DNA from: a virus
Direction: 5' to 3' (one strand)
Virus record (IMG/VR): IMGVR_UViG_3300020424_000009
Location: 1 to 37,324 of that record
DNA: 37,324 nucleotides
Shown here: in pieces, positions 30,963 through 35,447 of the stretch
How the letters are laid out: every line of letters starts with the position of its first letter
How positions within the stretch are numbered: position 1 is the first letter of the stretch
The notes under the pieces: model-generated
Database searches by the model: none
What the model saw: the letters and a program-made list of their open reading frames with translations, nothing else
What the model was told of the DNA's origin: nothing
Program-made: the position numbers and the translations under genes

Positions 30963-32276
30963 ATGGTTAAATTACGAGATTATCAAAAAGTGGCAAGCAG
31001 AAAATTGACCAGGCTTTGTCAGATCAAAAAATGTGCATATTTGAGTGGCGAATGTAGAACAGGCAAAACAATGGTGGCACTGTCTGTTGTTAAGAATATG
31101 GCACTTGAAAAAGTGTTGGTAATAACCAAGAAAAAGGCAATACCAAGTATTGAGAGTGATATAAGAAAAATGAATCTTGAGAAGGTAGTATCTGTCACTA
31201 ACTTTGAAATGTTAAAAAGGTTCAGAGGATCAAGCTGGAATATGATCATCGTTGATGAGGCACATAGTGTCGGTGCATTTCCAAAACCATCGCAGAGATA
31301 TTTAAATATCTTGAAACTTAGATACAACATTATTATTCTGATGAGTGGAACACCAAGCCCTGAGAGTTTCAGCCAGCTTTATCATCAATGGTCTTTGACA
31401 CCTTTTCTGTGGAGTCATTATCAGAACTTTTACAGATGGGCGAGTGATTATGTGGATGTAAAGGAAAAAAGAGTTGGCACTGGTATTGTCATAAAAGATT
31501 ATTCAGATGCCAAACAAAAAAGGATATTGAAGGACATTGAACCTTATACGGTACAGATGACACAAAAGGAGGCAGGCTTTACTCAGGAAGTTGAGGAGGA
31601 AGTTCATATGGTGAAGATGTCCAGGAGAACATACAGATTGGCCTTAAGGATAATCAAAGATGGTGTCATTGGAAGCCCTGGAGGAAGATCTGTTGTTGCA
31701 GATACTGGCGCAAAGGTAATGAGTAAATTGAGGCAGATTTATAATGGCCATGTGATAACGGAAAGACATGGAGCAATAGTTTTTGACAAAAGTAAGGCTG
31801 ACTATATAAAAAACAACTTCAGTGGAAGGATTGCCATTTTATATTGCTTTATTGCTGAAGGTAAAATGCTGAGAGAATATTTTGGAGACAGAGCAACCGA
31901 TGATCCAGATATATTCAATGCTGTAAGCGATTCTGTTTTTATAGGTCAGGTCAAGAGTTGCAGAGAAGGAGTTAATCTGAGTAGTGCCGATCACTTGATT
32001 TTTTTGGGGATAGATTATTCTGCACTTAGTTATTTACAGGGCAGAGAAAGAGCAAGTTTTCTTGGTAGGGATAGAAAAAACAAAATACATTATATTTTTG
32101 CAGAGAAGGGAATCGAGCCAAAAGTATATGATGTTGTTAAATTAAAGGAAAGTTATACTATTAACCATTATAGGAATGACCGAAGCTCAATATCAGAAGA
32201 AGCTGATCGACAGGCACGAAAAAGAAGGATGGACAGTTATCAAGTTAATTATGTGCAACAAAGCTGGTTTACCTGA
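30963..32276 (+). CDS. Superfamily II DNA helicase (437 aa)
   Basis: SNF2/DEAD-like two-domain helicase. R-D-Y-Q at 5-8 (Q-motif-like), GECRTGKT at 29-36 (Walker A), D98-E-A-H (motif II), S128-G-T-P (motif III), and in the second domain the S-C-R-E-G-V-N-L motif V and Q-G-R-E-R-A-S-F-L-G-R (motif VI with two Arg). No nuclease fused. It probably unwinds or remodels DNA during phage replication or recombination. Its end overlaps the VRR-NUC gene by 101 bases. No Shine-Dalgarno is visible before the ATG; the leader may be very short. Confidence 0.9.
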   Translation: MVKLRDYQKVASRKLTRLCQIKKCAYLSGECRTGKTMVALSVVKNMALEKVLVITKKKAIPSIESDIRKMNLEKVVSVTNFEMLKRFRGSSWNMIIVDEAHSVGAFPKPSQRYLNILKLRYNIIILMSGTPSPESFSQLYHQWSLTPFLWSHYQNFYRWASDYVDVKEKRVGTGIVIKDYSDAKQKRILKDIEPYTVQMTQKEAGFTQEVEEEVHMVKMSRRTYRLALRIIKDGVIGSPGGRSVVADTGAKVMSKLRQIYNGHVITERHGAIVFDKSKADYIKNNFSGRIAILYCFIAEGKMLREYFGDRATDDPDIFNAVSDSVFIGQVKSCREGVNLSSADHLIFLGIDYSALSYLQGRERASFLGRDRKNKIHYIFAEKGIEPKVYDVVKLKESYTINHYRNDRSSISEEADRQARKRRMDSYQVNYVQQSWFT

Positions 32277-32415
32277 TCTGATATGTATGAAACCAGATGA
32301 GGTCAAGTTCATTGAGGTCAAGGGGCCAAAGGGAAGGTTAAGTGAAATCCAGAAATATAGGATTGAAGAACTTAAAGAAGCTGGTTTTCCTGTAGAAGTC
32401 ATGCGACCTTGTTGA
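32176..32415 (+). CDS. VRR-NUC domain nuclease (79 aa)
   Basis: A complete minimal VRR-NUC (PD-(D/E)xK) nuclease: E3 and Q5 near the start, then G-L-P-D-L and I-E-V-K-G-P-K-G-R-L-S-E-I-Q (E-V-K catalytic core and the Q of motif IV). These small enzymes act on branched or flap DNA and are commonly linked to SF2 helicases in phages, as here. The start lies 101 bases inside the helicase gene, in another frame. Confidence 0.9.
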   Translation: MTEAQYQKKLIDRHEKEGWTVIKLIMCNKAGLPDLICMKPDEVKFIEVKGPKGRLSEIQKYRIEELKEAGFPVEVMRPC

Positions 32416-32441
32416 CAATTGTTGATAAGTATGTTTATAAT
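32412..32441 (+). promoter_or_regulatory. Consensus sigma70-type promoter
   Basis: Perfect TTGACA (32412-32417) and perfect TATAAT (32436-32441) with an 18-base spacer. It overlaps the stop codon of the VRR-NUC gene. Start of transcription is expected near 32448, about 19 bases ahead of the next ATG. This should be a strong promoter for the host's main sigma factor, driving the early genes from 32467 onward. Confidence 0.8.
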
Positions 32442-33013: not shown

Positions 33014-33394
33014 ATGACACCAACTTTTGAAGTTTTTCAAATTGAACTTACAAGCAATGAAAGAGACATTCATGCCTTGTATAAAAATGATAGGAAGAGG
33101 GAAAACCAAGAATTTGCTACTGAGGCATTAATCAAAGCCATTAATGAAGAAGTTGATGGCAAAAAACTTGTTAAATCAAAACTATGGAAGGCAAAAGACC
33201 ATGATGCCTTGTTAGATAAGATTATGAAAAAAACTAATTGTAATATTGATGAAATAAATTTTTGGGAATTTAGGGAGGATAATACATATAATGAACTTTT
33301 AAAAGACCCATTCTATGAGTTTCACGAAAAAAGAATTAGAGAAGATATAGAAAGAGAGGGTGATCTTGACAAACTATATAAAGGTCTTGAATGA
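33014..33394 (+). CDS. Charged hypothetical protein (126 aa)
   Basis: Charged helical protein: a start like T-F-E-V-F-Q-I-E-L, then basic R-K-R-E-N-Q, and an acidic end (R-E-D-I-E-R-E-G-D-L-D-K-L). GGAGG lies upstream in the tail of the previous gene. No known domain. It overlaps the methyltransferase start by four bases, so its translation is coupled to it; this neighbour relation suggests a possible modifier or partner of the methyltransferase, without further evidence. Confidence 0.7.
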   Translation: MTPTFEVFQIELTSNERDIHALYKNDRKRENQEFATEALIKAINEEVDGKKLVKSKLWKAKDHDALLDKIMKKTNCNIDEINFWEFREDNTYNELLKDPFYEFHEKRIREDIEREGDLDKLYKGLE

Positions 33395-34329
33395 AAAAAC
33401 TTAAATTATTAGATACTTTCAGTGGTATAGGAGGATTCTCATATGCTGCTGAAAAACTTGTTGGCGGTTTTGAAACTACACAATTTATTGAAATTGATCC
33501 ATACTGTCAGAAAGTATTAAAAAAACATTGGCCTAACGTACCTATTCACGATGACATCAAAACATTCACAGCAGAGCCTTTTCAATACGATGTCGTATGT
33601 GGAGGCTTTCCATGTCAATCAATTAGCAAAGCATCAGGCAAAGGAGAAGGCATCACGGAGACTTCAAAATCTGGTATGTGGTTTCAACTCATTAGAACCA
33701 TACGCATGGTACGACCAAAGTACTTCATCTTGGAAAACGTATCAGCGATCCTTACTAACGGAATGGACATCGTTCTCAGGGACATTTACGAGACAGGGTT
33801 ATATGAATGCGAATGGTGCTGTATACCAAGTTCGGCTGTTGGAGCTTGCCACCAAAGAGATCGCTGGTGGCTCCTGGGACATCCTTCCAACTCCGAGAGC
33901 ATCGGATGTAGAGGGGGGAGTGGTGAAGGATGTTCAGTACCAGAACGGAAACTTCTTCAGAGAGAACAAAAAAGGAGAGAAATGGGGAGTAAAACTGAGA
34001 GATGCGGTATCGATTCTTCCAACACCAAGAGCAGCGATTGGAATGGGGATGAAACTCAGCAGGGAGATGGCAAACTACGAACACAAGAAATATCTAGAGA
34101 CAGAAATTGCAGCCAAAATTCACAAATATGGAGATGTACAGAACACCGACTCAACTCAAACTGGAAACACTATGTATCTCAACCCACAATTTGTAGAGGA
34201 GATGATGGGCTACGAAATCGGGTGGACAGACTTAAAGCATTAGGAAATTCTGTAGTTCCTCAGGTAGCTGCTATACCACTGCAAAGAGTGAAAGATATTC
34301 ATGAACAGTTGACAAGTGTTGACCGTTAG
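33391..34329 (+). CDS. DNA cytosine-5 methyltransferase (312 aa)
   Basis: Methylates cytosine in DNA, probably to protect phage DNA from restriction. Motif I DTFSGIGGF at 8-16 (SAM binding), motif IV G-G-F-P-C-Q-S with catalytic C75, motif VI E115-N-V, motif VIII H-Q-R-D-R-W-W at 154-160, and motif X A-L-G-N-S-V-V-P-Q at 283-291. The region from about 165 to 270, where the target recognition domain and motif IX should be, is Ser/Arg/Gln/Asn-rich and poor in hydrophobics, unlike a normal globular domain. This is the part that shares its DNA with a second gene in the +1 frame. No cognate restriction endonuclease is encoded nearby. Confidence 0.92.
   Translation: MKKLKLLDTFSGIGGFSYAAEKLVGGFETTQFIEIDPYCQKVLKKHWPNVPIHDDIKTFTAEPFQYDVVCGGFPCQSISKASGKGEGITETSKSGMWFQLIRTIRMVRPKYFILENVSAILTNGMDIVLRDIYETGLYECEWCCIPSSAVGACHQRDRWWLLGHPSNSESIGCRGGSGEGCSVPERKLLQREQKRREMGSKTERCGIDSSNTKSSDWNGDETQQGDGKLRTQEISRDRNCSQNSQIWRCTEHRLNSNWKHYVSQPTICRGDDGLRNRVDRLKALGNSVVPQVAAIPLQRVKDIHEQLTSVDR
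33551..34243 (+). CDS. Nested overlapping gene inside methyltransferase, +1 frame (230 aa)
   Basis: Open frame of 230 codons lying wholly within the methyltransferase gene. Its translation has the marks of a real conserved protein: residues 50-69 P-Y-A-W-Y-D-Q-S-T-S-S-W-K-T-Y-Q-R-S-L, 75-89 F-S-G-T-F-T-R-Q-G-Y-M-N-A-N-G, L-P-T-P-R-A at 112-117 and again at 156-161, L-N-P-Q-F-V-E-E-M-M-G at 210-220, and G-W-T-D-L at 224-228. I recognise these blocks from phage proteins filed as hypothetical or as methyltransferase-related. The last block resembles C5-methyltransferase motif IX. No Shine-Dalgarno precedes ATG 33551, so expression might depend on coupling, a weak start or frameshifting. Confidence 0.75.
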   Translation: MTSKHSQQSLFNTMSYVEAFHVNQLAKHQAKEKASRRLQNLVCGFNSLEPYAWYDQSTSSWKTYQRSLLTEWTSFSGTFTRQGYMNANGAVYQVRLLELATKEIAGGSWDILPTPRASDVEGGVVKDVQYQNGNFFRENKKGEKWGVKLRDAVSILPTPRAAIGMGMKLSREMANYEHKKYLETEIAAKIHKYGDVQNTDSTQTGNTMYLNPQFVEEMMGYEIGWTDLKH

Positions 34330-34361: not shown

Positions 34362-34496
34362 ATGAAACATTTATTTCTCTATCTCTGCATTTTTGGCATT
34401 GGATATATCTCGCTTACGGATTCATTGACACGTTCTACCGAAATCCATTGCCTTAATAATATCCAGGCTGCGTGTGAGGAGCTTGCTAGACGATGA
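34362..34496 (+). CDS. Small membrane or signal-anchored protein (44 aa)
   Basis: Starts M-K-H-L-F-L-Y-L-C-I-F-G-I-G-Y-I-S-L, a short hydrophobic segment that could be a signal anchor, then a polar helix with two Cys (H-C-L-N-N-I-Q-A-A-C-E-E-L-A-R-R). Its stop overlaps the next ATG (ATGA). I recall similar small secreted peptides in cyanophages. The 32 bases upstream are without features. Confidence 0.55.
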   Translation: MKHLFLYLCIFGIGYISLTDSLTRSTEIHCLNNIQAACEELARR

Positions 34497-34822
34497 AATT
34501 AAATTTAGATTTACCAAAAGATAAGTGGGAGTTCATCAAAAGAAAACTTGAACAATTTAAAAAAGACAGTGAAACTGCTACTTTATTTTGTAACGCGATT
34601 GAATCTTTATCATTTGAAGAATCTTGGTCACAAAAAATCTTTCAATGTTTGACTTCAAATGGTAAAAATCCATTTAAGTTTCCAACAACAACTGAGTTGG
34701 AAGATTGTACTTATGGTTCAGCCATTGTAAAACAATGTGAATTATCAGGTACAAAATGGAAGTCACTTGAAAAAATTTATTATCAATTTCTTCTTGATAA
34801 TTACAGTATGGAGAAAAAATAA
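34493..34822 (+). CDS. Hypothetical protein, paralog of 35106-35447 (109 aa)
   Basis: Begins M-K-L-N-L-D-L-P-K-D-K-W and contains S-E-T-A-T-L-F-C-N-A-I-E-S, P-F-K-F-P-T-T and Y-Y-Q-F-L-L-D-N. The whole chain aligns with the protein encoded at 35106 (conserved start, E-T-x-x-x-F-C-x-A-x-E-S, F-P-T and Y-Y-x-F-x-x-D-N). No known family. It is helical, soluble, with no signal. It sits in the early operon before the recombination genes. Confidence 0.75.
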   Translation: MKLNLDLPKDKWEFIKRKLEQFKKDSETATLFCNAIESLSFEESWSQKIFQCLTSNGKNPFKFPTTTELEDCTYGSAIVKQCELSGTKWKSLEKIYYQFLLDNYSMEKK

Positions 34823-35109
34823 TGATGAGTGAATATGATCTTGGTTTACGCTTTCATAAATCACCGAGGAAGAAGCGACCAACCCCTGAACGCTCCGACC
34901 TCGGCAACCCAATTTTAACCATGACCGATAAAGAAATCTTCAATACATTTGCATCTGTAATTGATTCTCCAGACGCATCACCTTTTCTCAAGAGACTTGC
35001 ACAGGCTGGTCTTGTTGCAATGCCCCAGGACAAGGCACTTATCTTGAAAACATGGCCTCGGATAATGATGCAATACGGCCCTCACACTAAGAGGTACTCA
35101 GACTCATGA
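34822..35109 (+). CDS. Hypothetical basic protein (95 aa)
   Basis: Basic N-terminus (K-S-P-R-K-K-R-P-T-P-E-R-S), followed by an amphipathic helical part (T-D-K-E-I-F-N-T-F-A-S-V-I, F-L-K-R-L-A-Q-A-G-L) and a basic end. It separates the two paralogs and overlaps both neighbours by one to four bases. Function unknown; a DNA-binding role would fit the charge pattern. Confidence 0.7.
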   Translation: MMSEYDLGLRFHKSPRKKRPTPERSDLGNPILTMTDKEIFNTFASVIDSPDASPFLKRLAQAGLVAMPQDKALILKTWPRIMMQYGPHTKRYSDS

Positions 35110-35447
35110 AACTTAATTTAGATTTACCAAAACATAAATGGCAGTGTATTTCTCGACATTTGAGAGATTATAGAAAAGAAGATGAAACAGTGAACACTTT
35201 TTGTTGTGCTGTTGAATCTATTGAATTTGGTACTGACTTTCCATCAAAGATGTATCATTTTTTGTCATCACACTCTGGATTAACTCCTTTAGTTTTTCCA
35301 ACTGTTCAAACTATTGCGAAATATGATGGAGGCCCAGGGCTTCTTAAAAATATGTATCAAATATATGAACATACAAGTCAGGCAAGAACCGATTACTACA
35401 AATTTATTCAAGATAATTTCAAAATAGTTCAACAGGATAAATCATGA
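35106..35447 (+). CDS. Hypothetical protein, paralog of 34493-34822 (113 aa)
   Basis: Shares M-K-L-N-L-D-L-P-K-x-K-W and later blocks with the other copy; the first 36 bases are nearly the same, while the rest has diverged widely in sequence with the same length and pattern. It has C-C-A-V-E-S in place of C-N-A-I-E-S. Presumably duplicated long ago with the start kept by selection. It overlaps the exonuclease gene by four bases. Confidence 0.75.
   Translation: MKLNLDLPKHKWQCISRHLRDYRKEDETVNTFCCAVESIEFGTDFPSKMYHFLSSHSGLTPLVFPTVQTIAKYDGGPGLLKNMYQIYEHTSQARTDYYKFIQDNFKIVQQDKS

Follow-up and report, generated by a model that had tools for sequence, protein, structure and literature searches.

A reading frame nested within a viral C5-cytosine methyltransferase gene probably encodes the DNA-recognition subunit of the same enzyme

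A viral C5-cytosine methyltransferase (C5-MTase) gene contains a second open reading frame in frame +1 that almost certainly encodes a real protein, and this protein is probably the DNA-recognition subunit of the same methyltransferase. The locus as a whole very probably encodes one split C5-MTase of the M.EcoHK31I type, with target recognition and motif IX contributed by the nested beta subunit. Hundreds of phage and bacterial genomes have loci arranged in this way, and the inner gene usually goes unannotated.

Organization of the nested locus

The window, by which we mean the whole 37,324-base stretch of the virus record that was analysed (36.8% GC), is partly related to the Prochlorococcus siphophages MED4-184 and P-HS2 (~80% identity across 3.3 kb). 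The inner ORF (beta) lies wholly inside the outer methyltransferase ORF (alpha) on the same strand (Table 1), and this is the only fully nested same-strand pair of ATG-initiated ORFs of at least 100 aa in the window. Both ORFs are found where the original prediction, made from the letters of the DNA, had placed a second frame of 693 bases and 230 codons.

A perfect sigma-70 consensus (positions 32412–32441; TTGACA, 18 nt, TATAAT, 12/12) is situated just upstream of the run of genes leading to the methyltransferase. A VRR-NUC/Holliday-resolvase-like ORF (32176–32415; phrog_93, E 1e-17) overlaps the end of a helicase ORF (30963–32276) by ~100 bases in another frame. Downstream of the methyltransferase are two paralogue-like ORFs (34493–34822 and 35106–35447) with the common start MKLNLDLPKxKW, neither of which has a PHROG match.

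Table 1. Features of the nested methyltransferase locus, in window coordinates
Feature	Position	Strand	Remarks
Alpha subunit, outer C5-cytosine methyltransferase ORF	33391..34329	+	312 aa, frame 0, motifs I–VIII and X
Beta subunit, nested inner ORF	33551..34243	+	230 aa, ATG start, frame +1
Inner ORF start ATG	33551..33553	+	kept in 61/61 homologues sharing the outer PIH[DGH]D motif
Alpha motif IV, GGFPCQ, catalytic cysteine	33601..33618	+	G72, P74 and C75 invariant in 42 outer homologues
Alpha linker, aa ~165–277	33883..34221	+	open, polar, predicted disordered; carries beta coding
Inner module 1, LPTPRASDVEGGVV...KLRDAVSI, putative TRD module	33884..34015	+	~65% identical module at loci with catalytic domain ~30% identical
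Inner module 2, LPTPRAAIGMGMKL...GNTMY, putative TRD module	34016..34177	+	module family M8, 7 loci
Inner motif IX, LNPQFVEEMMGYEIGWTD	34178..34231	+	hhalign against single-chain C5-MTases falls on their motif IX
Alpha motif X, DRLKALGNSVVPQVAA..., frame 0	34222..34317	+	G285 and N286 invariant (42 outer homologues); helices folded in AlphaFold2 model

The outer frame

The outer ORF matches phrog_363 (E 1e-65) and PF00145 (E 8.8e-35), the latter over profile positions 2–205 of 324 only. Motifs I, IV (PCQ), VI (ENV), VIII and X are present in the conserved order, which identifies alpha as a C5-cytosine DNA methyltransferase; a TRD and motif IX are absent from this chain, as judged from PF00145 coverage, the AlphaFold2 model and the motif frames. 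In the model, pLDDT is mostly 80–98 at aa 1–168, but 63–77 around aa 71–100, lies below 50 across most of aa 170–273 and is about 83–96 at aa 281–310. The folded part resembles the catalytic domains of M.HhaI and DNMT1 in fold, and the M.HhaI family by sequence too. The partial PF00145 match and the disordered middle thus indicate a chain with motifs I–VIII and X and without a recognition domain or motif IX, and alpha is best modelled as an M.HhaI-like I–VIII domain plus X with a disordered middle. Motifs I to X had originally been assigned to the outer frame; this has to be amended, with I–VIII and X in the outer frame and motif IX and the TRD-like modules in the inner one. The abnormal polarity also reported for the outer frame in the overlap is right for aa ~168–277, which are disordered according to AlphaFold2.

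The open +1 frame and its distribution

When synonymous codons were permuted within the outer gene, keeping its protein and codon set, none of 1000 shuffles reached the observed 240-codon +1 open stretch (mean 88). The codon-permutation p is < 0.001 for the window and most of ~85 homologues, many only 30–40% identical in the outer protein; two complete homologues are not significant (L105, p 0.077; L094, p 0.284). All of the 223 distinct relatives whose outer gene is complete have the inner family. Among these, which are not independent samples, 187 have a fully open +1 frame and none a fully open +2 frame, and the antisense frames are open in 3, 3 and 0.

Fetching loci by the outer protein only removes selection bias, and homologous methyltransferases with a closed +1 frame were sought among them; all 53 complete loci obtained in this way carry the inner family. 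Conversely, an inner-profile search of bacterial and viral collections yields 160 loci, 159 of which have the inner gene nested in frame +1 of a methyltransferase (the exception is L242), and there is no free-standing inner gene, none of the 160 loci lacking a methyltransferase. An E. coli prophage homologue (L374, 2501–3262), which is annotated as a pseudogene and interrupted by stops close together in both frames, was left out.

Selection in the two frames

Substitutions were counted per outer codon position in pairwise DNA alignments favouring no frame, using three sets: window-like phages, other viruses and bacteria. The fastest outer position is the third before the overlap (0.36–0.49) and in motif X (0.41–0.45). 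Between motifs VIII and X it is the first, which is the third position of the inner frame (0.33–0.39 vs 0.13–0.21 in all three sets); rates in the TRD region at positions 1, 2 and 3 are 0.37, 0.16 and 0.13 for the window-like phages, 0.33, 0.14 and 0.14 for other viruses, and 0.39, 0.20 and 0.21 for bacteria. A protein-aligned version of the count agrees. Because the fastest base here is the inner third position, selection between motifs VIII and X acts on the inner protein. Where the overlap covers the catalytic motifs the third outer position is still fastest, yet slower than in the non-overlapping part, so that both frames are constrained there; outer synonymous suppression is seen at window aa 111–165.

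Ungapped pairs of modules are more identical in the inner than in the outer translation in 599 of 609 comparisons, and across the TRD region of Streptomyces loci the codon position that is rich in GC becomes that of the inner frame. These substitution patterns show both frames to be under selection, with the inner one dominant between motifs VIII and X, where the outer frame is modelled as merely an open, polar, predicted-disordered linker. Dual coding, as originally proposed, is supported by the open-frame statistics, the frame-specific substitutions, conservation of the start codon and the 223/223 co-occurrence.

Modules and motif IX in the inner protein

Beta matches phrog_1008 (E 9e-23), labelled 'DNA methyltransferase' in PHROGs, and 28 viral loci, which bears out the claim that its sequence blocks are conserved in phage proteins. 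Neither Pfam nor NCBIfam gives a significant match, nor does the PDB by sequence or by fold, and the AlphaFold2 model is weak (pLDDT 63.5, pTM 0.30). PHROGs calls the alpha (phrog_363) and beta (phrog_1008) families alike 'DNA methyltransferase', and phrog_1008 holds the inner-frame protein together with a terminal stretch matching the outer-frame motif X.

The inner proteins are organized as an N-terminal block (AWYD..TSSWKT..), a series of modules opening LPTP or WPTP, and a C-terminal LNPxFVExMMGxPxGWT. There are one to six modules per protein, and 119 distinct arrays among 204. Pairwise comparison of the modules was relied on, family M1 having been over-merged by single-linkage clustering; modules are common to loci with catalytic domains <40% identical, and sharing between loci whose catalytic domains are ~30% identical suggests exchange of specificity by recombination. 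The modules are shuffled between loci, and no homology to known TRDs was detected for them: when the inner block is inserted into the outer chain, the single-chain C5-MTase HMM score does not rise (mean change -12.9 bits; better in 58/203).

An unweighted PSSM of the inner C-terminus picks motif IX in only some single-chain enzymes, and for this reason a profile-profile test and in-frame variants were used for this assignment. With hhalign, the inner C-terminus aligns exactly to the single-chain C5-MTase motif IX, LTPRExxRLQGFPD (P 0.042 for the whole inner profile and 0.0023 for the C-terminus alone).

Natural variants

The frames of the motifs were surveyed in 267 distinct loci where the catalytic part, IX and X could all be recognised. 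In 251 of these, only IX is in frame +1, the catalytic part and X both being in frame 0. Seven loci (L242, L377–L380, L383 and L385) have both IX and X in frame +1, and their alpha ORFs end 9–27 nt past motif VIII; the outer frame is therefore kept open over the modules only where X must be reached. Five actinobacterial loci (Gordonia phage JKSyngboy and Streptomyces loci L140, L161, L174 and L177) have IX and X in frame 0 and the modules alone in frame +1, and in L107, L140, L161, L174 and L177 the sequence LNPxFVEWLMGLPxG immediately precedes motif X in frame 0. These variants, as read from their sequences, show that parts can move between frames; they link the inner protein with the methyltransferase and mark its C-terminal part as motif IX. 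An apparent three-part methyltransferase (L204, 581–2080) has an alpha that ends after VIII, a beta with TRD and IX, and motif X in a third ORF ~300 nt further on.

We consider it likely that these loci represent a large and ancient overlapping-gene family, distributed over phages and several bacterial phyla, whose swappable recognition modules lie out of the catalytic domain's frame. The overprinting would be mutual, the beta N-terminal domain lying on the alpha catalytic motifs and the alpha disordered linker on the beta modules, and there would be three architectures, one with the modules alone nested.

Start and expression of the inner gene

The inner ATG is retained through alternative synonymous codon pairs (CAC GAT, CAT GAC and others), and the synonymous CAC GAC, which would remove it, is used in none of the 61 homologues compared (Fisher 7e-9, relatedness ignored). 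No Shine-Dalgarno sequence is visible before the inner ATG in the window or its clade; clear ones are present in several other clades, such as TAAAGGAGTTA, and GGGAGGAGTA in L022 and L026, and candidate inner ATGs have one in 25.5% of cases vs a background of 9–10% (2.5 times). Predicted RNA folding in the vicinity of the start gives nothing unusual (z -0.62). Constraint is weak over the first ~45 inner residues, which leaves some uncertainty as to where exactly beta starts; beta is probably translated from an internal ATG.

A split methyltransferase and alternative explanations

The proposed arrangement is that frame 0 would yield alpha, with an AdoMet-binding and catalytic domain (motifs I–VIII), a long disordered linker and motif X, and that frame +1, probably read from the internal ATG at 33551, would yield beta, with a small N-terminal domain, TRD-like LPTP modules and motif IX. 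By the motif survey, the inner frame holds the modules and motif IX, both of them missing from alpha, and we infer that the two chains assemble into a complete C5-MTase. The beta modules would bind DNA and pick the target sequence or sequences, with the number and kind of modules setting the specificities. By analogy with known phage C5-MTases, the likely use is protection of phage DNA, the phage most likely methylating its own DNA against host restriction. Of the partner roles originally suggested for the inner protein, a target-recognition part is best supported, since what the outer protein lacks, the modules and motif IX, is found in the inner one, and a separate antirestriction factor is disfavoured because none of the 160 inner-profile loci is without a methyltransferase.

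Programmed ribosomal frameshifting offers another way to join the parts: a +1 shift after motif VIII would give a single chain of I–VIII, TRD and IX (and X), with no separate beta. The DNA order I–VIII, TRD, IX, X is indeed the canonical one, and in the seven loci where alpha ends 9–27 nt past VIII one such shift yields a full-length enzyme. However, the window and 250 other loci have motif X in frame 0 and would require a return shift as well, and conservation of the inner frame extends well upstream of VIII (the AWYD..TSSWKT block, and the outer synonymous suppression described above). Free internal initiation is preferred on these two grounds, and the conserved start ATG and the Shine-Dalgarno sequences of several clades also speak against a shift; we regard frameshifting as unlikely.

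The two remaining explanations are less probable still. That the inner ORF encodes an independent antirestriction or regulatory protein merely overlapping the methyltransferase would fit an N-terminal part without recognisable fold and a model that matches nothing in the PDB, but this is very improbable given that 0/160 inner-profile loci lack a methyltransferase, that motif X joins the inner frame in seven loci and that the inner motif IX is in the outer frame in five. The least credible is that the open +1 frame is an untranslated by-product of outer conservation and codon usage. Long spurious frames are frequent in GC-rich homologues, and L105 and L094 fail the shuffle, yet the window is merely 37% GC, and the synonymous shuffling, the +2 and antisense controls, the shifted fastest codon position, the 599/609 module pairs and the conserved start all contradict this explanation. 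A split methyltransferase with a nested recognition subunit is the preferred reading.

Implications for annotation

Many records list such enzymes as a single-chain 'DNA cytosine methyltransferase', omitting the would-be specificity subunit, and prediction of specificity and cloning from the annotation would therefore fail. If confirmed, these would be among the most widespread nested gene pairs of prokaryotes and their viruses; they would provide a clear comparative test of how overlapping genes share constraint along one sequence, and would offer a modular, separable specificity subunit for methyltransferases.

Comparison with known systems

Two-subunit C5-MTases are already known, and the beta gene of M.EcoHK31I is also nested in another frame inside its alpha gene. 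The window shares with that enzyme the division of motifs, with I–VIII and X on alpha and IX on beta. M.EcoHK31I (YGGCCR) consists of two polypeptides, the large subunit with I–VIII and X and the small one with IX, and its predicted TRD is placed on the large subunit (PMC3404938). The TRD-like modules described here are instead in the small subunit, often several per protein, and in phages, and no restriction enzyme is seen near the window. M.AquI (CYCGRG) is a split C5-MTase of alpha and beta with IX–X on the small subunit (PMC3404938). The seven L242-like loci are similarly divided, with I–VIII on alpha and TRD, IX and X on beta, whereas in the window motif X belongs to alpha, within which beta is nested, and this sets the window apart from the M.AquI type.

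To our knowledge, the multispecific C5-MTases of the SPbeta type are single chains. Like these, the loci described here have several modules in a row between motifs VIII and IX, which may likewise be exchangeable TRDs but are in another reading frame and open LPTP. The presence of several TRDs in the SPbeta-type phage enzymes is described by Trautner et al. 1996, as cited in PMC12707154.

The inner gene has been recorded before as annotation. Paenibacillus phage Shelly (GenBank KP296795) has a gene inside its methyltransferase annotated 'g55 internal gene', and two adjacent 'DNA-cytosine methyltransferase' entries are listed for Paenibacillus phages (PMC6070908). For phrog_1008 and the Shelly gene the literature searched gave only annotation and nothing on function, mechanism or distribution; likewise no description of the nested phage family was found in the open-access literature searched, which is weak evidence of absence. 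What looks new is the breadth of the family, the placing of TRD arrays in a shifted frame, and the third architecture. As far as the sequences indicate, these loci are set apart from M.EcoHK31I and M.AquI by modules that would be in beta and not alpha, by their organization in arrays, by the presence of all three divisions in one family, and by their occurrence in many phages and bacteria.
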